This document shows, piece after piece, positions 1 to 42,556 of a DNA stretch of 42,556 bases. Where the stretch lies: positions 1 through 42,556 of IMG/VR virus record IMGVR_UViG_3300028193_000001; one strand, given 5' to 3'. The first letter of the stretch is position 1. Every line of letters begins with the position of its first letter. The DNA comes from a virus. Below the pieces are notes generated by a model. That model was not told the origin of the DNA. It saw only the letters and a program-made list of their open reading frames with translations, and searched no databases. The position numbers and the translations under genes were made by a program.

Positions 1-41
1 ATGCCAGTTCCCATCTCGGCGCTCGCCTTTGCTTATTTTAA
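1..41 (+). CDS. 3' end of the DGR variable protein (continues from the window end)
   Basis: Read in the frame that continues from the window's last base through 36 missing nt, bases 3-38 encode A-S-S-H-L-G-A-R-L-C-L-F, and TAA at 39-41 is the stop. Bases 1-40 align without gaps to TR 156-195. The seven mismatches all fall on TR adenines (162, 167, 170, 176, 180, 184, 193). This is therefore the 3' part of the VR belonging to the protein that starts at 41314. Joined over the gap, the protein would be about 439 residues. The alternative is the tail of a second, unseen target gene, if the window is part of a longer linear contig. Confidence 0.8.
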   Translation, partial: ASSHLGARLCLF

Positions 42-73: not shown

Positions 74-195
74 CGTGTGGTGCATGTTGGCAGTAATGCG
101 AATAACAGTGCGAAAGTTGGCGTGTTCTACGTTAATGCGAATAACGATTCCTCGAATGCCAATTCCAATATCGGCACTCACCTATGCTTATTATA
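74..195 (+). repeat. DGR template repeat (TR)
   Basis: This non-coding copy is the template of the retroelement. TR 74-119 aligns with VR 42511-42556, and TR 156-195 aligns with VR 1-40. Of the 24 TR adenines in the two aligned parts, 17 differ in the VR (11 to G, 3 to C, 3 to T). None of the roughly 62 non-adenine positions differs. In the VR frame the TR is rich in AAT, AAC and AGT codons, which is usual because adenine-rich codons give maximum diversity. It begins only about 33 nt after the VR and ends about 110 nt before the reverse transcriptase. That spacer (196-304) includes a small CCCG/CGGG hairpin at 261-275 and is probably part of the template RNA. Confidence 0.93.
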
Positions 196-304
196 ACCTT
201 ACACATAAAAGCCATGCCCCTTGGCAAAACACAAAGCAATGCCTCATTCGTGTTGGTAGTCCCGTTTTTTTCGGGGTCGAATACTCGGAGGTGAAATAAG
301 CAAA

Positions 305-3316: not shown

Positions 3317-3337
3317 AGAAGAAAATGAGATTCAAAA

Positions 3338-3382
3338 CACACCCCGTGGCTAAAGCCACACCCCTCTTATTAGAGGGGATTT
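3338..3382 (+). repeat. Double-hairpin repeat, family B
   Basis: Two small hairpins lie side by side: GTGGC/GCCAC with loop TAAA, then CCCCTC/GAGGGG with loop TTATTA. Further copies are at about 12994, 13863 and 20061, each ending in GAGGGG a few bases before a gene start. This copy fills the gap between the holin and portal genes. Confidence 0.85.
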
Positions 3383-3409: not shown

Positions 3410-5623
3410 ATGAACTATCTTTCAAATAGCAGTATGGGCGAACAGGTCGAAGCTCAATTGGAGTTCCGATATAAGCACGGGCATTCCAACTCTGAAAATC
3501 CCGATAAGGTGATCCAGCTCAAGGGCATGGATTACATCGAGGATATTGAGAGAGATACTGCTTATAGGTCCTACCTGAACACACGCATCCAGTCCGTTGT
3601 TTCAAAGGGATTTAAAATAATACCTCATGTGAGCATGGTGAAGGGCAAGTCTGCTGTTAGGGCAAGGGATCTGGAAATTTGTGAATTCGTGCGATATAAT
3701 ATTGAGCGGATACCTACATTTGAAACAGACGTTATTGCAATGTTCGATAGTATTTCCAAAGGATTTTCGCTTTCCGAGATCAATTATGAATTACTGATCA
3801 AAGGTAAATATCGAAATAAGATTGGTTTGAAAAACATACGATTCAAACCGGCAAAGCAATTCTCATTCAAGTTTGACAGATTTGGATATTATCAGCCAAC
3901 AGTGGTCGATCCCTATGACTCCAACAAAGTACTCGATCTAAATAAATTCATACATTTTATAAGTGGCAGGAATGATGAGAATCCGTATGGTGAGAGCGCT
4001 GCTTCTCTACTTGCATTTTGGGTATGGCTTAAAAAAAATGGCGCAAAGTTCTGGGCTATTTTTCAAGAGCGATTTGGGATGCCTTTCAGTACAGTAGAAG
4101 TTCCGGACAATGCAGACGATGATACGATAGCTAAAGCACAACTTCTTCTGGATTCATTTGTAAAAGATTCGGGTGCTTTGGTTCCCAAAAATATAGTAAT
4201 AAAACTTCTTGAAGCAGCACGTGCCGGAGATGCGTCTTATGACGGATTCATCAAAAGGTGTAATTCCGAAATAGCAATGATAGTACTGGGTCAAACCCTG
4301 AGCACGAATGAAAGCGTCAAAGGAACAGGAACCTATGCACAGGCGAGCGTTCATGCCGGAGTGCTGAATAATTATACACTTTTTGATGTATGTGTGAGCG
4401 CTGCTGCTCTTAATCATCAGCTTATACGTAATTTAGTTGATATGAATTACGATACAGATTATTATCCTGTTTTCCAGTGGAACAGTTTTAATATGAGTAT
4501 GCTCATCACGATTGCACAGAATATTGCTAATTTGGTGGATGCCGGTTTGAAAGTGCCAGCAAGGTTTATCTATGAAGCAATTGGGATCGATGTGCCGGAA
4601 GGTAATGAGGAAACACTGAAGAGCGAGGAGCGAAGAGCGAAGAGCGAGGAGATCACGCCAAAAGGTGAGGATAATAAAGTTACAGGATACCAGGAGTTTG
4701 CAGAAAATAATATTGATGATATTATCGAGCAGAATGAGCGATTCTGGAGAGATAATGATATTATCAGCGACATCTATACTCAGAAATTCGCAGAGGATTT
4801 CCAGAGCGTAGCGACATATATTTCCAAACAAAAGAAATTCCAGAAAGAGAATATTGAAAAATATATCACAAAAGTTTTAACCCCAGAGGTCAAAGAATTA
4901 CTCGTTTTGAGCTACTTGCAGGGCAAGGATCATGCAGGGCAGCAGATGGTCGGGGAGCGTGTAGCGTGGAGCGAGAAGCGTGGACCAGAAAGATTTCACG
5001 CTGAGAACGCAGAGGAAGAACGCAAAGAACGCAGAGATTTTGTGGAAAATGAAGATGAAAAGAAGTCTTATGATGAGTGGATATTGTATTTTATTGGTGC
5101 TGGGATCATTACGGAAGCTGGCTTGAAGAAATTGGAAGAGCAGCTTGCAGGCAGGATCGGGGTGATAGCTTATGATCAGGCGGTGCAGGTAGGGGATAGA
5201 TTATACAATATTATTGCAGGTGCAAGCGGTGATGGATTCGCAGCGGTTAAGGCAGCCATACAAGAACATCTTGCAAGCTGGGGATTGACCGAGCTGAGTC
5301 CTTCCCATTTGGCAACTGTAGCTCAAACAAACCTGGCGACATATTATGCAAATGGACGTGAGGAGATCTATAAGGATGCAGATCCCTCAGAATTTCCGTA
5401 CCGTATGGTAGTGACCATGAATGATACTCGGGTGCGTCCATCTCATAAAAAATTTCATAAATTCACGAGAAAAATAAATGATCCGATCTGGCGTGTGCTG
5501 AAAGAGCCGTTTGATTATGGCTGCAGGTGCACGAGAATCGTATTACACAGATCGAGAGAAGCAGCGGAAACCATGACTGTGCCGGAAATGACAGAGTTGG
5601 GGTTTGTAATGAGCAGGATGTGA
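3410..5623 (+). CDS. Portal protein (DUF935, Mu gp29-like) fused to MuF head morphogenesis domain
   Basis: This 737-aa protein is the dodecameric vertex channel for DNA entry, fused to a minor head protein. Residues about 20-400 match the DUF935/Mu gp29 portal pattern (DTAYRSYLNTRIQSVVSKGF; FAKQFSF-like segment; NPYGESAASLLAFWVWLKKN; FQERFGMPFSTVEVP). Residues about 620-725 carry a MuF-type domain (NLATYYANGREE; NDTRVRPSHKKFHKF; YGCRCTRIVL). In Mu these are separate proteins (gp29 and gp30). Two stretches are translated intergenic-type repeats: about 400-415 (SEERRAKSEE) and about 513-548 (RVAWSEKRGPERFHAENAEE). The second lies near the domain junction. It is followed by the protease and capsid genes, as in Mu-like heads. 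Confidence 0.92.
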   Translation: MNYLSNSSMGEQVEAQLEFRYKHGHSNSENPDKVIQLKGMDYIEDIERDTAYRSYLNTRIQSVVSKGFKIIPHVSMVKGKSAVRARDLEICEFVRYNIERIPTFETDVIAMFDSISKGFSLSEINYELLIKGKYRNKIGLKNIRFKPAKQFSFKFDRFGYYQPTVVDPYDSNKVLDLNKFIHFISGRNDENPYGESAASLLAFWVWLKKNGAKFWAIFQERFGMPFSTVEVPDNADDDTIAKAQLLLDSFVKDSGALVPKNIVIKLLEAARAGDASYDGFIKRCNSEIAMIVLGQTLSTNESVKGTGTYAQASVHAGVLNNYTLFDVCVSAAALNHQLIRNLVDMNYDTDYYPVFQWNSFNMSMLITIAQNIANLVDAGLKVPARFIYEAIGIDVPEGNEETLKSEERRAKSEEITPKGEDNKVTGYQEFAENNIDDIIEQNERFWRDNDIISDIYTQKFAEDFQSVATYISKQKKFQKENIEKYITKVLTPEVKELLVLSYLQGKDHAGQQMVGERVAWSEKRGPERFHAENAEEERKERRDFVENEDEKKSYDEWILYFIGAGIITEAGLKKLEEQLAGRIGVIAYDQAVQVGDRLYNIIAGASGDGFAAVKAAIQEHLASWGLTELSPSHLATVAQTNLATYYANGREEIYKDADPSEFPYRMVVTMNDTRVRPSHKKFHKFTRKINDPIWRVLKEPFDYGCRCTRIVLHRSREAAETMTVPEMTELGFVMSRM
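4612..4652 (+). repeat. Family F repeat (AGCGAAGAGCGAGGAG type) inside the portal gene
   Basis: A run of AGCGA(A/G)GAGCGA units is translated in frame within the portal coding sequence. The same repeat is otherwise intergenic here (19866, 20833, 30336, 37080, 37262). Confidence 0.85.
4950..5042 (+). repeat. Family F plus family D repeats inside the portal-MuF gene
   Basis: AGCGTGGAGCGAGAAGCGTGG is followed by TTTCACGCTGAGAACGCAGAGG-type units, both read in frame. These families fill intergenic gaps elsewhere (11866, 26549, 29085). The block lies between the portal body and the MuF domain. Confidence 0.85.
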
Positions 5624-7542: not shown

Positions 7543-8481
7543 ATGGGAAGAATAGCAGAACTTACAGGATCGGTAGATCCGGTCCTCACGAAACTTGCAA
7601 TCGGGTATAAAAACCCAAAATTCATCGCTGACCTTGTAGTACCGTCAATTCCGGTTCTTACTGAGACAGGGACATTCTTCAAACTTGGCAAAGAAGGATT
7701 CCTCATCTATGATGCAAAGCGTGCGTATGGTGCAGAGGCACGAAAGATATTCACCAAAAGAGAAAGCGATACTTATGCGTGCTATGAAAGAGCACTCGAA
7801 CATCCTCTCGATTATGAAGAGATCAAAAGGGCACAGCGTTACGGCACGAATTTTGATGTCATCAATCTTGAGCAGAATGCACAGCAGACAGTATCTCTGG
7901 CACAGGCAGTTGCAAAGGAAAAAGCAGTTGCAGACATTCTCTTTTCCGGCACATACTATGCCATCGGCAACAAAGCTACTTTGACAGGCAATGACCAGTG
8001 GTCAGTCAAAGCAACTTCCGATCCTCTTGGTGATATTATTACAGGCATCAAAGCTGCACGTGCAGACATGGGAGTGGAACCCAACACATTAGTAATGGGA
8101 TACCTCGCATGGGATGCTTTCCGTAATCATCCTTCCGTGCTGGCAAAGATCAAGAACAGTAAAAACAATTTTGTGTCTATTGAAGATGCAAAAGAGATAA
8201 CCGGAATTCCCAATATTGTTGTTGGAAAATCGATCTATTCCACCGATGCAGGCGTATTCACAGACCTGTGGGGTGACAATGCAGCTCTTATTTATCTTCC
8301 TACTCAGGGCGAGAATGCAAAGGGCGTTACTGTTCATACTGTCCGATTCAATGTGAAGGGATATCCTATTGTTCGTAAATATGCAAACAAGAAAACTCTG
8401 GATATTGAAGAGACTCAGATCTGGGGTGTGAAGAACATCGACACAAGCTATGGTTATCTGATTATTGATGTGGTAGCATAA
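7543..8481 (+). CDS. Major capsid protein
   Basis: At 312 aa it has the usual length for HK97-fold coat proteins of this type. N-terminal features (LAIGYKNPKFIADLVVPSIP, GTFFKLGKEGFLIYDAKRAY) and the long central helix region (FDVINLEQNAQQTVSLAQAV) fit the family. A strong ribosome site (GGGAGG) precedes the start. It follows protease and decoration genes and is followed by connector genes, which fixes the role by order as well as by pattern. Confidence 0.9.
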   Translation: MGRIAELTGSVDPVLTKLAIGYKNPKFIADLVVPSIPVLTETGTFFKLGKEGFLIYDAKRAYGAEARKIFTKRESDTYACYERALEHPLDYEEIKRAQRYGTNFDVINLEQNAQQTVSLAQAVAKEKAVADILFSGTYYAIGNKATLTGNDQWSVKATSDPLGDIITGIKAARADMGVEPNTLVMGYLAWDAFRNHPSVLAKIKNSKNNFVSIEDAKEITGIPNIVVGKSIYSTDAGVFTDLWGDNAALIYLPTQGENAKGVTVHTVRFNVKGYPIVRKYANKKTLDIEETQIWGVKNIDTSYGYLIIDVVA

Positions 8482-12849: not shown

Positions 12850-13040
12850 GGAAAAGATTCCACGCAAAGCTCGCAGAGAAGAAATGGAAATTACCTCATT
12901 CCCAAGCCCTCACGTCATCTCGTTCCCAAGCCCCTGCTTGGGAATGTCTGGAAATAATGTCATGCTGAGCCGGTCTAAGCATAAAGAGCAGATAACACAC
13001 CCCACGGCTGAAGCCGCACCCCTCTTGATAGAGGGGAATA
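12850..13040 (+). repeat. Repeat cluster (families D, A, I and B)
   Basis: In order: a CACGCAAAGCTCGCAGAGAA unit (D), a partial and a full family-A palindrome (12896-12948), a TCATGCTGAGCCGGTC unit (I, also at 13830), and a family-B double hairpin (about 12994-13038) whose GAGGGG end lies shortly before the next start. No gene is seen here. Confidence 0.88.
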
Positions 13041-13062
13041 GTAATGAAAGCAGGTGAAATAA

Positions 13063-19865: not shown

Positions 19866-20101
19866 GAACGAGGAGCGAAAAGCGTGAAGCGAAAAGCGAC
19901 ATTTACCATCTCGTTCCCAAGTTCAACTTGGGAACAAGTAAAAACATCCTCGTTCCCAAGCCCTCACACCATCTCGTTCCCAAGCCCTCACACCATCTCG
20001 TTCCCAAGCCCTCACACCATCTCGTTCCCAAGCCCCTGCTTGGGAATGCAAAGCAGAAAACACACCCCCCGGCCAAAGCCGCACCCCTCTTATTAGAGGG
20101 G
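19866..20101 (+). repeat. Large repeat cluster with 24-bp tandem array (families F, A and B)
   Basis: It begins with AGCGAAAAGCG units (F), then a full family-A palindrome (19909-19937). Three 24-bp direct units (CTCGTTCCCAAGCCCTCACACCAT type, 19949-20020) follow, then a complete palindrome and a family-B double hairpin (20061-20101). The tandem part is made of half-palindromes. The cluster is open in more than one frame, but I call no gene because it is repeat throughout. Confidence 0.88.
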
Positions 20102-23676: not shown

Positions 23677-23697
23677 GAGGCAACCAATGGAAGAAAT

Positions 23698-23738
23698 GCA
23701 ACCACGAAATGCACGAAAAGACACGAAAAAGAAAGAGG
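23698..23738 (+). repeat. Family E repeat
   Basis: CAACCACGAAATGCACGAAAAG and ACACGAAAAAGAAAG units lie between the integrase and the next gene. The GAGGAG that serves as the ribosome site follows directly. Confidence 0.88.
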
Positions 23739-23742
23739 AGAA

Positions 23743-24525
23743 ATGATGAAAAAGAGAATGAAAAAAAGTATATTTATTTTAATTATATTTCTAACCTTTT
23801 TACATTTTTATATGTATGCTGAAGAAATAAATACTGGATTTATGCAAATTATGGGAGTTTTAAAAGGTGAATCTTCTATAAAATTATATTGGGGGTTAAG
23901 TATTGGATCGTCCTCAGACAAATACCCATATAAAATGAAATCACAATTGCTATATGATTTTAATGTATGGCTTACGGATGAACCCGATAGTAATGAGATA
24001 ATTGGTCAAATAAAAGAATTTCGATTTATAAAAGAACACCATGAAATAATATCATCTTTATTTAAGCAATTTGGTATGATCGGGAATAGTCTTGGAATGT
24101 TTATATATCGTGATGGACAGATACCGATACGTGTTGCTGAATTTTCAGGCAAGCCGTGCCTGCTAATAACAGATGTTGCGACTGACAAAGTATATAATAC
24201 CCTTAGAACTACATCGAGAAGTAGGGCGTCTGATATTTTGAATTCAACTATCTTGCCTGAGCTTAACGACTTCAATAGAGGATTAAAAGATACAGATATC
24301 GATCAGTTCGGAATTATTGTTTCTTATGGGAGTAAGGATTTTCTTGATGATTACAATTTAAGTTTGAAGGGTGAAGCATTATGCCTTATTGTGTCAAAAA
24401 TTGATTGCGCTAAATTTATTAATGGCGAAATAACCGACAATGAGTTACTCGACAATTCTCATATTTTTATAAGTGATAGAAATATGATGTCCGGCTTTAA
24501 AAAAATTAATATAAATATTGAATAA
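23743..24525 (+). CDS. Exported protein of unknown function
   Basis: The protein has 260 aa from ATG 23743, or 255 from ATG 23758. The start region is a signal peptide (KKSIFILIIFLTFLHFYMYAEE). The rest is soluble and mixed alpha/beta (LYWGLSIGSSSDKYPYKMKS; FGMIGNSLGMFIYRDGQ). I prefer 23758 because the MKKSIF start then matches the genes at 24525 and 25945. It lies in a cluster of exported proteins right after the integrase, a typical place for lysogenic-conversion genes. The family is unknown. Confidence 0.6.
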   Translation: MMKKRMKKSIFILIIFLTFLHFYMYAEEINTGFMQIMGVLKGESSIKLYWGLSIGSSSDKYPYKMKSQLLYDFNVWLTDEPDSNEIIGQIKEFRFIKEHHEIISSLFKQFGMIGNSLGMFIYRDGQIPIRVAEFSGKPCLLITDVATDKVYNTLRTTSRSRASDILNSTILPELNDFNRGLKDTDIDQFGIIVSYGSKDFLDDYNLSLKGEALCLIVSKIDCAKFINGEITDNELLDNSHIFISDRNMMSGFKKININIE

Positions 24526-24608
24526 TGAAAAAAAGTATATTTATTATTATAATATTATTATTAGTATATTCCTTTTTAAATGGCTGGTGTTGGGAGAAAA
24601 TAGTATGA
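24525..24608 (+). pseudogene. Truncated duplicate of a signal-peptide gene start
   Basis: A 27-codon frame (MKKSIFIIIILLLVYSFLNG...) is nearly identical over about 60 nt to the start of the gene at 25945, then diverges and stops at 24606-24608. Its ATG overlaps the stop of the gene before it, and its stop overlaps the next start (ATGA). It looks like a copied 5' end whose body was lost or replaced. It may still serve to couple translation. Confidence 0.6.
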
Positions 24609-25697: not shown

Positions 25698-25948
25698 TGG
25701 GAATAAATTATCAAGAATTTTTAATGTATGTTGCAGAAAATGCTTTGGAAAAATTAATGTATGAACCCATAATATTAAGTCATGAAATAACTGTAAATGA
25801 TAGCACTTCTTATCATCCTGCAGAAAAGAAAGGTTTTTGGAAACTGAAACTATATTATAAAGATGAACCTTTTATTGATATCTATATTTCTTTTGTAGAT
25901 TATAATAAATATTCTCTTGACTTTAAAAAATTAAAGGGGGTTGGATGA
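25694..25948 (+). CDS. Hypothetical small protein
   Basis: This 84-aa protein overlaps the preceding gene (ATGATG at the stop) and has AAGGAGGAA as its ribosome site. It contains a helix (NYQEFLMYVAENALEKLMYE) and strands (PFIDIYISFVDYNKYSLDF). Its stop overlaps the next gene's ATG (ATGA). It looks like a member of the same coupled cluster; the function is unknown. Confidence 0.6.
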   Translation: MMGINYQEFLMYVAENALEKLMYEPIILSHEITVNDSTSYHPAEKKGFWKLKLYYKDEPFIDIYISFVDYNKYSLDFKKLKGVG

Positions 25949-26541
25949 AAAAAAGTATATTTATTATTATAATATTATTATTAGTATGTTCCTTTTTAAA
26001 TGGCTGGGGGCGTAAGGAGAGAAAGCTCAATTTTATAGAGGAAACAAATCATATTGTCGCTTTTGAGTTCACAACAAATTCTGATCTTGGCATTCAATTC
26101 ATCCGAAGTGTCGCCCATAAGCCGGGTATTTTCTTTCATGTTCAAAGCCATCTTGGTAGCCCGGCTGAAGAGTGTGTATATGGAAGCATCACTCCTTATA
26201 TTGCTGAGGAAATATATGGCGACTGGTATAGGGGAGATGATAAGCATAGTATCCTCTATGCAGTAGGAGTGTCGCTTGCGATGTCGCCCTCGACATTATT
26301 ATGCTTAGGTATGGGAATAGCACAGCAGATTACATACAGAAATTACATGGACCTCACCGGTATCCTCGGCGATGGGGGATCTTATTATGTTATCGAGAAA
26401 GATGAGTGGGGGATCAGCCCATATCTTTCAATTAATTTTAAGGTTTCTCGGTTTATGATATGTGCATTCTCGCTTTCGACCTATCCGTTCCAGGTGGGTT
26501 TTGGGCTTGGTGCGGATTTCGGGATTGCTGGGATAAAATAA
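25945..26541 (+). CDS. Exported, possibly outer-membrane-like protein
   Basis: This 198-aa protein has a signal peptide (KKSIFIIIILLLVCSFLNGW) followed by a charged region and a Gly- and aromatic-rich end with alternating hydrophobic residues (SPYLSINFKVSRFMICAFSL; VGFGLGADFGIAGI). The C-terminal part looks like beta-barrel-type strands. It could alter the surface of a Gram-negative lysogen. Its first about 60 nt are almost identical to 24525-24585. The outer-membrane call is inference. Confidence 0.55.
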   Translation: MKKSIFIIIILLLVCSFLNGWGRKERKLNFIEETNHIVAFEFTTNSDLGIQFIRSVAHKPGIFFHVQSHLGSPAEECVYGSITPYIAEEIYGDWYRGDDKHSILYAVGVSLAMSPSTLLCLGMGIAQQITYRNYMDLTGILGDGGSYYVIEKDEWGISPYLSINFKVSRFMICAFSLSTYPFQVGFGLGADFGIAGIK

Positions 26542-29568: not shown

Positions 29569-29870
29569 TTTTAATAAAAAATAACAGAGAGAGCATTCCC
29601 AAATCGGAGTTTGGGAATGAGAAGTACTCATTTTTTATTATTAGGCGCATTGGTTTTTGCGGTCTTTTTCCCTCCAATGGGTTTTTCAGCCGCTCCTCCT
29701 TTCACCGGTGCGCCTTTTTTCAAGAGTTCACGCATCCGCCTTCATTTCATTACGGCGTGACAGGGAGAAAACAAAATGATGAAAGTGAAGAACAAATATT
29801 GAAAGAAATACATGAGCGGGTGCAGGGATTGTTGGAAGATTATATAGCAAAAAAGAAAATAGAAGGATAA
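29565..29870 (+). CDS. Repeat-interrupted small protein
   Basis: The 101-aa frame starts by ATGA overlap. Its first residues (MILIKNNRE) and its last about 30 (EEQILKEIHERVQGLLED...) look like ordinary coding sequence. The middle is made of a translated family-A palindrome (SIPKSEFGNE) and a family-G repeat (EFTHPPSFHYGVTG). This suggests a short gene into which repeats were inserted without breaking the frame. An overlapping 47-codon frame (29617-29760) with a signal-like start cannot be excluded. Confidence 0.5.
   Translation: MILIKNNRESIPKSEFGNEKYSFFIIRRIGFCGLFPSNGFFSRSSFHRCAFFQEFTHPPSFHYGVTGRKQNDESEEQILKEIHERVQGLLEDYIAKKKIEG
29593..29621 (+). repeat. Family A palindrome inside a coding frame
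   Basis: GCATTCCCAAATCGGAG...TTTGGGAATGAG is the same variant as at 29153 and 17217. It is read in frame in the 29565 gene. Confidence 0.85.
29732..29765 (+). repeat. Family G repeat (GTTCACGCATCCGCCTTC type)
   Basis: Further copies lie at 32393 and 36226, with a degenerate one near 9827. In all three good copies it is followed by GTGACAGG. Confidence 0.85.
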
Positions 29871-36495: not shown

Positions 36496-37080
36496 ATGCC
36501 AAATAAGATCAAGGGATTAAGTCAGTATGATGAAAGATGGAAGAATGCGAGTTGCGGGTTGCGGGTTGCGGGTTGCGGGTTGCGGGTTGCGGGTTGCGGG
36601 AATGAGACTATCGGTGAAGTGGGGTGCTTGCTTACATGCTATTGTATGCTGGCACAATATCTCACGGGTATCGAGTGGAATCCGTTGCAGTTGAATTATT
36701 TATTGAAGAGATTCGGCGGGTATATGGATTGCAATAAGATCGTGCATTCCACAATATCATATCTTTTCGGGGAGTTTCTTTTTGGTGGATTGATATTGTG
36801 CAAGGATGTGCCTGCACCGATTTCGGATATTACGCTGATGCTTCCTACAATCGTGAAAATTGATTATATGGCAGGGCATTGGGTGCTTGTTACGGAGCAA
36901 AAGGGTGATGACTATGTGATACTGGATCCGCTGCAGACGTTCCCAAGCAGGGGCTTGGGAACGAGAAATGGCGGGGGATTGGGAACGAGTGAGAGTGGGG
37001 AGGAGATGTTATTAGAGAAATATGGTAAGCCGGGCTGGGGGCTGGAGAGGATCGTGCTGACGGCAGTGGTGAGATCGTGA
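36496..37080 (+). CDS. Papain-like cysteine peptidase (C39-like)
   Basis: This 194-aa peptidase has Cys44 (GEVGCLLTCYCM), His128 (AGHWVLV) and Asp144 (VILDPLQ) in the papain/C39 order. It starts after TAGGAGG. Between the first Trp and the catalytic Cys lies a translated tandem repeat (about residues 17-36, units CGLRVAG). A family-A palindrome is read in frame near residues 148-165 (FPSRGLGTRN). It could be a lysis enzyme or a virion or host-targeted peptidase; no signal peptide is seen. Both inserts are unlike the ordinary family. Confidence 0.75.
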   Translation: MPNKIKGLSQYDERWKNASCGLRVAGCGLRVAGCGNETIGEVGCLLTCYCMLAQYLTGIEWNPLQLNYLLKRFGGYMDCNKIVHSTISYLFGEFLFGGLILCKDVPAPISDITLMLPTIVKIDYMAGHWVLVTEQKGDDYVILDPLQTFPSRGLGTRNGGGLGTSESGEEMLLEKYGKPGWGLERIVLTAVVRS

Positions 37081-37339: not shown

Positions 37340-38071
37340 ATGACTCGGGAAGAAAGATCAATAAAATTCATAAAATCTTTTGAACCGAAAAAAGGATATT
37401 TTGTTGGCAATTCTGGTGGTAAGGATAGCATTGTGCTTGAACATTTAATGAGAAGATCGGGCGTAAAGTTCAAGTCAATATTTAATTTCACAACGGTTGA
37501 CCCACCACAGATTAGAGATTTTCTGAAGAAATATTATCCAGATACGATTTGGATGTATCCAAAAGAAACAATGTTTCAGGGTATTATAAAAAGAGATCTT
37601 CCACGAAGGGATGCAAGATGGTGCTGTGAGCATCTAAAGCATTATGCTAATAAATGGGAAGTTGTGGCAACCGGAATTCGAGCAGAAGAAAGCATCAATA
37701 GAAAAAATAACAGAGCGGAAGTTGAATTTTTCGATGAGCATATAATGTTTAATCCTATTTTTAAATGGTCAACACGTCAAATATGGGAATATATAAAATA
37801 TCACAAATTACCCTATTGTGAATTGTATGATAAGGGATTTAGCAGGATTGGTTGTATTGGATGTCCGATGACCGGATATAAAAATTTAGTGAAAGAATTT
37901 ACAATGTTTCCGAATTATAAGAAAGCATATTTGTGGAGTATTCAGAAACTTATTGACAAAGGATTATATCTTGATTTTGAAAATGCTGAAGATGTATTTG
38001 AATGGTGGATTCAGGGGGTGTCAGTGAAAAAATATCTTGGTTTGAAGAAGCAAATTAAGATTCATTTCTGA
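37340..38071 (+). CDS. PAPS-reductase-like PP-loop enzyme
   Basis: This 243-aa enzyme has the PP-loop S25-GGKDS30 near the start, then RRDARWCCEHLK, ATGIRAEESINR and the paired Cys of CIGCPMTGY. The Cys pattern (CC with CxxC) fits the iron-sulfur type of APS/PAPS reductase or DndC-like sulfur transferases. Phage members may reduce sulfate or act in nucleic-acid sulfur modification; the sequence does not decide. No dndD or dndE gene is present. It is the last early gene before the terminator at 38248. Confidence 0.78.
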   Translation: MTREERSIKFIKSFEPKKGYFVGNSGGKDSIVLEHLMRRSGVKFKSIFNFTTVDPPQIRDFLKKYYPDTIWMYPKETMFQGIIKRDLPRRDARWCCEHLKHYANKWEVVATGIRAEESINRKNNRAEVEFFDEHIMFNPIFKWSTRQIWEYIKYHKLPYCELYDKGFSRIGCIGCPMTGYKNLVKEFTMFPNYKKAYLWSIQKLIDKGLYLDFENAEDVFEWWIQGVSVKKYLGLKKQIKIHF

Positions 38072-38360: not shown

Positions 38361-39305
38361 ATGAAAGCGAATAAAGAGCAGAAAAAACAAGAGCGTCATT
38401 TTTGGTGCAAGCGCTGCCAATATTATTGGTTGACCGACCAATATGAGGAGCAAAAAAAACCTACGAATGACAAATATCCTTACGAGTCTGAATGCCCAAA
38501 ATGTGGGGAACTAACAGCAAACAATCATCATTGCGTAGCTCAGATATTAGGTGCGAAGCCGAAATGTACAGGACCTCGCACAGAGGAGGGAAAAGCACGA
38601 TCCTCTCAGAATGCGTTCAAGACAGGGATGTTCAGTACCCGCTCAAGTTATCTTGCACCCGCTCTTTATGGCAAATACCCTGAATGCAGGCAGAAAACAG
38701 ATGAGGTAACAGATCAAGGCGATCCGGTTTATGAGGATACTTGTGAACACGCTAAACTTTGTAAGCAAAAATTGCTGAGGCACTGTCCTCACCAGCTCAA
38801 TCTTATCGTTCAATACGCTGCTGCATACGAGGATGGAGATGCAAATGCCTTGAAGCAATTCGCTGGCATAGCACAGGGAAGAATCCATGTACTTCTTGAG
38901 AAAATGTATCAGGAGGTCATACAAGAAGGTCTTCAGATTTCCGAGCCAAGCAGGTTTGGTATTTTGAAGAAAGCACATCCTATGCTCGACCAAATAGGCA
39001 AGTTCATGCCGATTGCGGGATTTACCAGCGATCAGCAGCAGATGAATCCGAAATCGCAGCCGGATGGTGCAGAGCATCCTGAAGGCACAATGGAATTCAA
39101 GGGCGATCCAAATGATTTTATTGGATTGCTGGCTTATAAGATGGATCAGGCACGGGCAAAGATGAAGGTTGTTTCTGAAGATAAACAAGAGGAAGATCAC
39201 GAGGCAGAGATTGTGGAAAAAGCAGTTGAGGTTGGACCTGAAGATAATCCGTTCGAGAAGCGTGGAGCGAAGAGCGTGGAGCGAGAAGAGAAGAGTGAAA
39301 AGTGA
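38361..39305 (+). CDS. Terminase small subunit (putative), zinc-finger type
   Basis: This 314-aa protein has an N-terminal zinc-finger-like region (WCKRCQYYW; ECPKCGELTANNHHC). The pattern GPRTEEGKARSSQNAFKTGM is one I associate with terminase small subunits and related DNA-binding phage proteins. The middle is helical. The C-terminus (about 300-314) is a family-F repeat read in frame (GAKSVEREEKSEK). It is directly followed by, and overlaps, the large terminase. The call is by context and motif. Confidence 0.7.
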   Translation: MKANKEQKKQERHFWCKRCQYYWLTDQYEEQKKPTNDKYPYESECPKCGELTANNHHCVAQILGAKPKCTGPRTEEGKARSSQNAFKTGMFSTRSSYLAPALYGKYPECRQKTDEVTDQGDPVYEDTCEHAKLCKQKLLRHCPHQLNLIVQYAAAYEDGDANALKQFAGIAQGRIHVLLEKMYQEVIQEGLQISEPSRFGILKKAHPMLDQIGKFMPIAGFTSDQQQMNPKSQPDGAEHPEGTMEFKGDPNDFIGLLAYKMDQARAKMKVVSEDKQEEDHEAEIVEKAVEVGPEDNPFEKRGAKSVEREEKSEK

Positions 39306-41038
39306 AAAAAAGATTAATCAGATATTTGGGAGATTCTTCGCTACGCTCCAGAATGACAATTATTGTTTTGGTGTTGCTTATGAGTTTGACATCTGTTAAG
39401 ATTGCGAATGTTGCGGAGCAGGAGCTTCAAAAATTCAAGACAGATAATGTGGATGAGCGATATGCTGCTTATGCACTTTTTATGAAACATGCTTGCAATG
39501 TCGATCTCTTTCCTACTCAGCTTATGCAGGCGGATGATTATTTTCATAATACATACACACTCGAAGTAAAGCCACCACGTGCTGCGAAAAGTTTTGGGAA
39601 AAACGGGATCAATTTGTATGAGTGTGCAATTAACGAAAAAGAAAATCTTACAATTTATACACCGAAATTCAGCATTGGTAAGGAAGCATACGACTATCAG
39701 TATAATTTTATTTCAAATTCGACACTTCTCAATAATTTTATAAGGGTAAAATCCGGCAAGAATCAGTTATCATCCATACGATATGAATTTGTCAACCAGA
39801 GCAATTGCAAAATAATGACAGTTGCCGGCAAGATGGAAGGACACGAAACCAGCATTGCGGATGTGATGGAATTGGATCTTTGGGATTGGGAAGATTTTGC
39901 AAATAAGATGCCGAGACGACTCGGTTCCATAAACCAGAATGGATTGCCAACACGTATTCGTGTGGATGGCACTATTATGGGGCAGGAAAATATCTATAAG
40001 CTGGTTACTGAAGAAAAATATTTGAATATTTATCGCAACCTGATGAGGGCACAGCCGAATAACTTGCTTGGCATTCCAGAAGGTACATTGATGGATGTGG
40101 ATATTATGCTTGCAGCCGGTGTGCTCGATCCTGATATGGTTGAGCTGCAAAAGCAACAAATGACACCGGATGAAGTGCAGCGTTCTCTCTATCTAAAATT
40201 TACGGAATCAACAAATTTTATACACTCTAAATATCTTTTAGCTGTGATGAAGAAGGCACAGAAATGGAATCTCGAAGGAGTGCCATTTATAAAAGATGGA
40301 AGATATGTTTCTGACGGCATTGTATCGATTGGATTTGACTGCGGACATGCAGGGCAGACAGAAACAAGCTCGAAATATTCATTGCAGGTTTATGAGCATT
40401 TTGGCAATTACAGGAGATGGCTGAACAGCTTTACCTGGGCTTCGGATTATGATGACTCGCAGCTTTTGAAGGAGATAGTTGAGATCATTGCATTTTACAG
40501 ACCTCTTGGCGGATACGGTGATGCTCTCAAACAGAATTTTATTTCATCCTTGAACGATATTTGCTGGAGGGAAGGGCTTACTGATCTGAACAGGGAAGAG
40601 TTTCCCGACAATAAGCCATCGAGCTGGGATCACTGGTTCATTACTCCGTTGTGGAATACGGACAAAAACAAACATTTTTATTATGATTCACTTCAGCAGG
40701 GAATTCATAAAGGCACTTGCTACTATCCATATTATTCGATTTCAGACAACAGGCATGAAGCGGCACAGATGAGGCAGCTCAAGAGGCAGATGCTCAATAT
40801 CAGAAAGGAAAAAACAAAGGGATCGTACCCTCGTTATAAGGCAAATGATGAGAAGATAGGAGACGATCATACGGATGCGGCAGGAATGGCAAATCTATGG
40901 CTTGATGTACATGTGCAGAAGCCGATAGATTACAGCTTGATCAAACCTTCGGGAATGCAAACCAAGACTGCCGGCTTGACGGATAATTCAATACTCTCGG
41001 ATCTAAATATTTCGAGAGAAAATTATGACAATTTTTAG
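39302..41038 (+). CDS. Terminase large subunit
   Basis: This 578-aa packaging motor has the C-terminal RNase H-type nuclease: Asp near residue 344 (SIGFDCGHAG), GGYGDALKQNFIS, and the final Asp-His-Thr-Asp near 522 (GDDHTDAAGMANLW). The ATPase Walker A seems to be P-P-R-A-A-K-S (about 90-96), an unusual form. The frame opens at a GTG (39302) that overlaps the previous stop. The first about 26 residues carry a translated family-H repeat (SSLRSRMTIIVLVLL). ATG 39380 may be the true start. The role is secure by order and nuclease motifs. Confidence 0.88.
   Translation: MKKRLIRYLGDSSLRSRMTIIVLVLLMSLTSVKIANVAEQELQKFKTDNVDERYAAYALFMKHACNVDLFPTQLMQADDYFHNTYTLEVKPPRAAKSFGKNGINLYECAINEKENLTIYTPKFSIGKEAYDYQYNFISNSTLLNNFIRVKSGKNQLSSIRYEFVNQSNCKIMTVAGKMEGHETSIADVMELDLWDWEDFANKMPRRLGSINQNGLPTRIRVDGTIMGQENIYKLVTEEKYLNIYRNLMRAQPNNLLGIPEGTLMDVDIMLAAGVLDPDMVELQKQQMTPDEVQRSLYLKFTESTNFIHSKYLLAVMKKAQKWNLEGVPFIKDGRYVSDGIVSIGFDCGHAGQTETSSKYSLQVYEHFGNYRRWLNSFTWASDYDDSQLLKEIVEIIAFYRPLGGYGDALKQNFISSLNDICWREGLTDLNREEFPDNKPSSWDHWFITPLWNTDKNKHFYYDSLQQGIHKGTCYYPYYSISDNRHEAAQMRQLKRQMLNIRKEKTKGSYPRYKANDEKIGDDHTDAAGMANLWLDVHVQKPIDYSLIKPSGMQTKTAGLTDNSILSDLNISRENYDNF
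39329..39376 (+). repeat. Family H repeat at the start of the terminase gene
   Basis: GGAGATTCTTCGCTACGCTC and AGAATGACAATTATTG units, like 9205-9245. They are open in frame with the gene. Confidence 0.8.
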
Positions 41039-41046
41039 GAGAAAAT

Positions 41047-41304
41047 ATGAAATTTGGACAATTACAAAGCGTTCACCCATATTGCAGGGCAGCGGATAGA
41101 GGTACAGATACGGCTGCCTTTGCTGAGACACGCGGAATTGCGTGTAATGTTGCGGCATCATACCATGTTACGTTTGAGGAAGATGGCGTGACGCCGGTTG
41201 CGATGTATCTCAATAAAGGTATTGTATATCCTTTTTTAATCACAAACATTCTCACTACCTTGGATGCTGCGCTGACTGCGGGCGACATTACATTACTATA
41301 TTAA
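41047..41304 (+). CDS. Small phage protein before the DGR target
   Basis: This 85-aa Ala-rich, strand-rich protein (CRAADRGTDTAAFAETRGIA; YPFLITNILTTLDAALTAG) has a good ribosome site (AGGAGA). It lies between the large terminase and the DGR target gene, 9 bp before the latter. It could be a virion component or a chaperone of the variable protein; there is no direct evidence. Confidence 0.6.
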   Translation: MKFGQLQSVHPYCRAADRGTDTAAFAETRGIACNVAASYHVTFEEDGVTPVAMYLNKGIVYPFLITNILTTLDAALTAGDITLLY

Positions 41305-41313
41305 GGAGCTATT

Positions 41314-42556
41314 ATGGCAAAAAAAATATCAGAATATGATGAGGAATCTCTTGATCTTACTAATCAGTTTTTACTGATCGATGACACCAGCCAGAATAAA
41401 TTTGGCAAACTGCCATTGAGCAGGGTGTTTGATCCCGCCTATGGTATTGAGTGGGATCCATCAGCAGACACTTACACACGGCTTGGCAGAATCGCGGGCT
41501 ATGCAGCAGGCACTCCAACAGCAAAAGGCGCGGTAGTTCCCGATGACTTGCTGCCTGTACAAGCAGGCATGTTTGGCTGTGTTGTTAATGATGCAAAAGA
41601 GATGCAGTACAGGTTGAGTGCCACAAATCATGCCAACAAAGAGGATGGCAATGCTGCAACACTTACCGGTGCAGACGGGCAGGTGATGATCCGAGTTCCA
41701 CGGCACTGGTGGCTGCAGGAATACGTGGGCGGAAAGCACCGCTTTTGGGTGAGTCCATATCCCGTGAAGGGCTACCATGAATTTACAGGTGGATATATTG
41801 GTAAATACGGGGCAACAATGTATGATGACGGAACCTCTGATTATGTGGATGGTGACGGCAATGGTGGAGCGGATATAGCCAATGATGTGCTTGCTTCCGT
41901 AAGCGGCAAGAAGCCGTGGAGCAGTGAGGATAGAGCTGATTTCCGCACCCTTGCAGAAAACAGAGGCACTGGCTGGCACCTGCTTGATAATAGAATTTAC
42001 AGCGCAGTTGTTCGCTTGATGATAATTGAGCTTGCAACGCTTAATATGCAGGCAGCTATAAGTGAAGGAAATTCCAAGTTTGCAAGCTGGGTTTTTGCTA
42101 CATGTATTGGCGCAACCGGCAAGTCCAATGCAGACGGCGAGACCAGTAATGGGCAATCCACAGCGGGCGGAAATATTGGAGATTATGTTTCTTACAGAGG
42201 CATTGAAGATATATTCGGAAATCTCTACCAATTCCTTGATGGCGTGAATGTGAAAAATGTTGAAGCAGACCTTGCGAGCTATTTATGGTTATGTAATGAA
42301 CATGCGAATTATGCAGATGATGTTGAAACGAATTATACAAAATCCGGCGAGTTGGCATTGTTAGATGGATATGGTGCCAATCTCATTCAGAATATTAATG
42401 ACAAGGGCGGTTTGTACACCTCTGCTGTTGGTGGAAGTTCTACAACCAAGCTAACGGATTATTATTATCAGGCATATAGTGTATTAGCACCTGGCTATGT
42501 TACAGACTGGCGTGTGGTGCGTGTTGGCGGTTATGCGGGTAGCGGTGCGGCGGTTG
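41314..42556 (+). CDS. DGR variable protein, C-type-lectin-like receptor-binding protein (runs off the window)
   Basis: 414 complete codons are present, and the last base is the first base of codon 415. With the 36 missing nt and bases 1-38 the protein would be about 439 aa. The N-terminal part has virion-attachment-like sequence (ESLDLTNQFLLIDDTSQNKF). The C-terminal half is a C-type-lectin or formylglycine-generating-enzyme-like fold of DGR proteins: MIRVPRHWWLQEYVG, YRGIEDIFGNLYQFLDG, then ITDWRVVRVGG-type end (here VTDWRVVRVGGYAG). The end is the VR, whose changes match TR adenines. It is likely the tail-tip adhesin that recognises host receptors. Confidence 0.9.
   Translation, partial: MAKKISEYDEESLDLTNQFLLIDDTSQNKFGKLPLSRVFDPAYGIEWDPSADTYTRLGRIAGYAAGTPTAKGAVVPDDLLPVQAGMFGCVVNDAKEMQYRLSATNHANKEDGNAATLTGADGQVMIRVPRHWWLQEYVGGKHRFWVSPYPVKGYHEFTGGYIGKYGATMYDDGTSDYVDGDGNGGADIANDVLASVSGKKPWSSEDRADFRTLAENRGTGWHLLDNRIYSAVVRLMIIELATLNMQAAISEGNSKFASWVFATCIGATGKSNADGETSNGQSTAGGNIGDYVSYRGIEDIFGNLYQFLDGVNVKNVEADLASYLWLCNEHANYADDVETNYTKSGELALLDGYGANLIQNINDKGGLYTSAVGGSSTTKLTDYYYQAYSVLAPGYVTDWRVVRVGGYAGSGAAV
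42511..42556 (+). repeat. DGR variable repeat (VR), 5' part
   Basis: This part matches TR 74-119 without gaps. Ten differences, all at TR adenines (84, 92, 95, 101, 102, 105, 107, 113, 114, 115), out of 12 adenines present. The first 10 nt (42511-42520) are identical to TR 74-83. The 3' part of the VR is at 1-40. Confidence 0.93.

Follow-up and report, generated by a model that had tools for sequence, protein, structure and literature searches.

A 'linear' tailed-phage record closes into a 42,592-bp circular map and has both its ends inside one DGR hypervariable repeat

Why should a virus record end, on both sides, inside the same hypervariable repeat (VR)? The window analysed here is an entire IMG/VR virus record of 42,556 bp, classed 'linear', and the first-pass annotation, made from the sequence alone, had placed its right end in the VR at position 119 of the template repeat (TR) and its left end in the VR at TR position 156. 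Gapless alignments agree, with TR positions numbered according to the location of the TR at window 74-196:

42511-42556, + strand: left half of the VR (TR positions 74-119), in gapless alignment with the TR and with mismatches only at TR adenines
1-41, + strand: right half of the VR (TR positions 156-196), which also holds the C-terminus of the target gene with its stop codon at 39-41
74-196, + strand: template repeat (TR), the same in all three contigs that hold it
41314-42556, + strand: 5' part of the DGR target gene (tail protein, PHROG 5302), an open-ended ORF (phrog_5302, E 9.8e-69)

Both halves match the TR at 100% of its non-adenine positions, exactly 36 nt of TR register separate the two, and the reading frame of the target stays open across this gap to end ...ASSHLGARLCLF* (translation) at window 39-41. 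No second VR-like place exists in the whole window on either strand, the next best candidates reaching only 59-64% at non-adenine positions. The window ends share no exact overlap of 10-60 nt and so are not a simple terminal repeat; the missing terminal direct repeat, which is the usual database criterion and not a requirement of topology, is explained by a break inside the VR. Further features follow downstream:

60-70 and 203-213, + strand: left and right arms of a perfect 11-bp inverted repeat on either side of the TR (repeat search)
210-307, + strand: RT-17 RNA (Rfam RF03020) in the spacer between TR and reverse transcriptase (cmscan 59.4 bits, gathering 40.4)
305-1363, + strand: DGR reverse transcriptase (RT), 352 aa (PF00078; phrog_1423, E 2.6e-111; best solved relative 8ub7, E 5.6e-35)
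1360-1656, + strand: 98-aa protein downstream of the RT, weak phrog_19665 match, not recognised as Avd

The locus combines a DGR-type RT, an adenine-biased TR/VR pair and a VR at the 3' end of an RT-adjacent target. It is a further example of an already known type of element; what is unusual is that the two halves of its one VR form the record's ends.

When the RT and target proteins were used as queries, contigs spanning the junction came up under two metagenome numbers: IMG/VR 3300028276_000002 (L003) and 3300029680_000207 (L004). In L003, bases 1-159 correspond to window 42398-42556, the last of them being window 42556, and base 196 to window 1; in L004, window 40328-42556 extends up to base 2229 and window 1 onward starts at base 2266. 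Each contig holds exactly 36 nt between the window ends, in frame, which is the length that the first-pass annotation had called missing. It had also predicted a mixed set of 36-nt fillers that agree with TR 120-155 at all but the adenine positions, and two such fillers are now seen: compared with TR 120-155, the L003 36-mer carries 4 changes and the L004 36-mer 6, all of them among the 9 adenines, with 0 of the 27 other positions changed in either. Ends running into other DNA had been named as the finding that would tell against the join; L003 and L004 instead go from the target gene to the TR and then the RT, with nothing else between.

The contig to which L003 belongs (G001, 20,289 bp) starts at window 42398, passes the junction and ends at 20094, and a second contig of the same sample number, 3300028276 (G002, 22,632 bp), runs from window 19889 to 42544, stopping inside the VR at TR 107. 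The two overlap at the VR and at 19889-20094; no exact overlap between them exists at 20 kb, because of a difference in the copy number of a 24-nt unit:

19949-20035, + strand: 24-nt tandem repeat, the break site of G001 and G002, with one unit fewer in G002

Since the window is unbroken through 20 kb and G001 is unbroken through the VR, the map is closed at 42,592 bp. The record is thus confirmed as a complete circular-mapping phage genome of this length, including the 36 bases absent from the record itself. The spanning contigs (L003/L011 and L004) are assemblies themselves, and the window and sample 3300028276 may have source material in common or be closely related data; only L004, which has 3 substitutions outside the VR, clearly belongs to a separate lineage, and it is the more independent witness. 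Of the relatives in Cloacimonadota MAGs, neither spans the junction, contig C45 of G115 stopping within the target gene and contig C152 of G118 before the RT. The end of the former (L065, 5726-6228), although also inside the target gene, lies before the VR.

Gene order on the two sides of the junction fits the closed map:

38361-39305, + strand: 314-aa protein directly before TerL, in the position of a small terminase, conserved in G115 C45
39302-41038, + strand: probable large terminase subunit (TerL), 27.6% over 85% to the DNA packaging protein of Microcystis phage yong1
2894-3316, + strand: holin (phrog_3427)
3410-5623, + strand: portal protein (Mu-type) with a Mu F-like part (PF06074, PF04233; phrog_113)
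7543-8481, + strand: major head protein (MCP; phrog_1005)

TerL, the target with its DGR, the holin, the Mu-type portal, a protease, the head protein and the tape measure follow one another on one strand across the junction, and all function-assigned genes from 22782 via the junction to 20833 are on the + strand. TerL stands before the junction and the portal after it, and their homologues are adjacent in yong1, where TerL is directly followed by the portal. The MAG relatives retain this arrangement on each side of the junction: G115 has DnaB ... TerL-85aa-target, and G118 has 164aa-147aa-73aa-portal-protease-MCP. No family match was found for the 314-aa protein. A late operon had been drawn from 38320 across the junction to 20897: its common strand and the closing of the TerL-to-portal order hold, but its borders carry no promoter or terminator signals above chance (16 promoter-like sites found against 15.3 expected, and a terminator scan likewise at chance level). 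Elsewhere the window contains two different tyrosine recombinases in one phage (22975-23676 and 30403-31368, the latter with a weak telomere-resolvase match), two 63-nt stretches, 98% identical and signal-peptide-like, at two neighbouring genes (24525-24587 and 25945-26007), and a PAPS reductase-family gene (37340-38071), either an auxiliary metabolic or a DNA-modification gene.

What the closure says is a matter of the map, and it fits a covalent circle, circularly permuted linear DNA, concatemeric DNA or tandem DNA alike. The earlier claim of a circular genome accordingly stands for the map, through the closed tiling with L003, L004 and G002, and does not extend to the physical molecule. Headful phages give a circular map without fixed ends, and we would give an even chance to a particle genome of this kind here, that is, circularly permuted, terminally redundant linear DNA whose circular map comes from varied cut sites; this would oppose a circular molecule, not a circular map. 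The probable TerL and the Mu-type portal are in its favour, but this TerL has no match beyond one named phage.

The closed map leads to the question of why the record breaks where it does, and here the comparison of alleles is informative. Within TR 74-193, the window VR differs from the TR at 17 of 23 adenines and at 0 of 61 other positions (Fisher p 4e-13); for the whole VR, the changes affect 22/32 adenines versus 0/88 other positions in L004 (p 1e-16) and 19/32 adenines versus 1/88 other bases in L003. Four alleles of the pair together show one non-adenine change within TR 74-193; this sole such change inside the repeat is a T to G at L003:127 (TR 87), in one allele only. By contrast with the VR, TR 74-200 is identical across three contigs. 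Outside the VR the window shows zero substitutions against G001 (18.5 kb compared) and against G002 (13.2 kb compared), or none over about 31.7 kb for the 3300028276 contigs together, all the differences being confined to the VR. Judged from these sequences, variation of the VR alongside a constant TR points, if indirectly, to DGR activity. Some positions do not vary: TR positions 176, 180 and 184 read G, G and T in all three VR alleles and the 3' part of the right VR half (the half at window 1-41) is constant among alleles and IMH-like; these fixed TR/VR differences are as expected for an IMH/IMH* pair, for which the region is a candidate. Each of the four alleles also has G at positions 92 and 107, perhaps through selection. 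L004 carries a 2-nt deletion at the end of the VR (L004:2287-2315, TTATTTTAA -> TTATTAA), which moves the stop codon and lengthens the product by two residues; it may be a scar of retrohoming or an error of assembly.

The first-pass annotation had proposed that assembly failed where the phage particles differ most, and this proposal is now well backed. A second contig, G002, also ends inside the VR (TR 107) and with a different allele; G001 and G002, under one sample number, carry different VR alleles; alleles of the 3300028276 contigs and the window differ only there; and the start of G001 lies 126 nt ahead of the point where it first departs from the G002 allele, a distance of about one large assembly k-mer. 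That similarity between TR and VR alone, and not a mixture of alleles, confused the assembler is very unlikely. The two repeats are in register with each other at a distance of 156 nt, and repeats do interrupt assemblies, but their longest exact common word is 13-14 nt, shorter than the usual assembly k, and two contigs were assembled through the VR, which together make repeat similarity a poor cause of the break; it also leaves aside the position of the break, in the VR and not in the TR, and the other allele seen within one sample number. A mixture of alleles at the VR is thus strongly supported as the probable cause of the break.

As for the host, close relatives of the phage genes are found in Cloacimonadota MAGs (MCP 86% in G118, TerL 76% in G115), a host assignment that passes through MAG binning, which may be wrong, and the window's dispersed repeats are of host type, recurring across Cloacimonadota contigs. 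Together these make Cloacimonadota, of which Candidatus Zophobacter is a member, the likely host. The repeats are a feature in their own right: there are dozens of them, intergenic, of several families and unusual for a phage (for example at window 3334-3379, 4602-4662, 12953-13047, 23694-23737, 29723-29804 and 36938-36970), and the same kind is present throughout the Cloacimonadota MAG contigs. No papers were found in a literature search on DGRs of Cloacimonadota phages.

Host-type repeats and two tyrosine recombinases could also suggest a fragment of an integrated prophage with host DNA beyond both ends, but phage genes continue across the junction in L003 and L004 and flank both integrases, and we consider this reading highly improbable, even if integration at another stage of the life cycle is possible. 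The least credible reading of all is a genome that is linear, without a circle, and has a different VR-bearing gene at either end: the abstract of PMC10743442 describes some DGRs as having more than one target gene, but the window has no second VR, in two contigs the halves are joined by exactly 36 nt within one reading frame, and these spanning contigs refute it unless both are chimeric.

Taken together, these results favour, with a probability of about 0.93, a complete, circular-map, tailed and probably temperate Cloacimonadota phage whose record was cut within its DGR-diversified VR. The sequence of events would begin with the RT copying the TR RNA with errors at adenines, and we infer that this enzyme made the changes seen here; the mutated copy would replace the VR at the 3' end of the tail-protein gene, and particles of one otherwise clonal population would come to differ in the VR alone. 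Many VR alleles between single flanking sequences would make the short-read assembly graph branch at the VR, and the assembler would have stopped there from both sides, turning a circular map into a 'linear' record with one half of the VR at each end.

The element shares several features with the DGR of Bordetella phage BPP-1: (i) the RT is closest to the solved bRT (8ub7 family), 8ub7 being the BPP-1 enzyme. (ii) TR-to-VR changes are confined to adenines and the VR is at the 3' end of a tail gene. (iii) The constant 3' end resembles IMH/IMH*. (iv) The spacer between TR and RT is structured: in BPP-1 the RNA of this spacer recruits the RT complex (PMC12875486), and here the RT-17 RNA, present in L003 and L004 too, is in the same place. 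It is probably the template-RNA scaffold of this phage, and its position suggests that RT-17 is the DGR template-RNA spacer in this group. There are differences from BPP-1 as well: (i) no avd-sized gene lies between VR and TR here, the TR starting about 30 nt past the target stop; no ORF of at least 60 aa was found between VR and TR except one overlapping the TR, and the 98-aa downstream protein gave no Avd match. (ii) The TR is bracketed by the 11-bp inverted repeat, whose arms pair in the predicted fold, the overall stability of which is not above that of shuffles; the inverted repeat was not found in relatives L005 and L007. (iii) The target has no detected sequence relation to Mtd. This target gene, which runs off the right end of the window and is full-length in L004, resembles instead the variable protein TaqVP of a Thermus aquaticus prophage DGR (PDB 5VF4, PMC6328139) through a match of its family profile (E 9.3e-5), the matched stretch ending before the VR. 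On this profile evidence an FGE-type C-type lectin fold is a likely candidate; an AlphaFold model of the target (pLDDT 32) was discarded as too poor. Among DGRs of other phages, those of crAss-like phages and Psychrobacillus phage Perkons have RTs up to 51% and targets up to 30% identical, but their genomes are about 97-137 kb and show no DNA-level similarity to this phage, and the phage collection contained no DNA-level relatives.

In passages of PMC7981956 and PMC9238414, the DGR target gene is described as an often variable spot in viromes, microdiversity is named as a cause of assembly breaks, and reverse transcriptases are said to be missing from short-read virome assemblies; a circular genome whose record ends are the halves of one VR is not reported in those passages. 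Here, a record labelled 'linear' is shown by other sequence records to be a complete circular map, and its break point is a readout of DGR diversification: about 31.7 kb compared are identical, yet at least four VR alleles exist. Whether DGRs systematically hide complete circular phage genomes, many 'linear' or incomplete DGR phages being closed genomes cut in the VR, is a proposition that we hold to be about as probable as its opposite. If true, such hidden genomes would be recognisable by two ends that are complementary halves of one VR, and statistics on completeness, topology and DGR targets would be biased against the most actively diversifying phages. Asking whether the ends of a contig form one VR is a simple test for hidden complete genomes of DGR phages, and this phage of an uncultured phylum is well suited, as a natural example, to measurements of VR allele pools.
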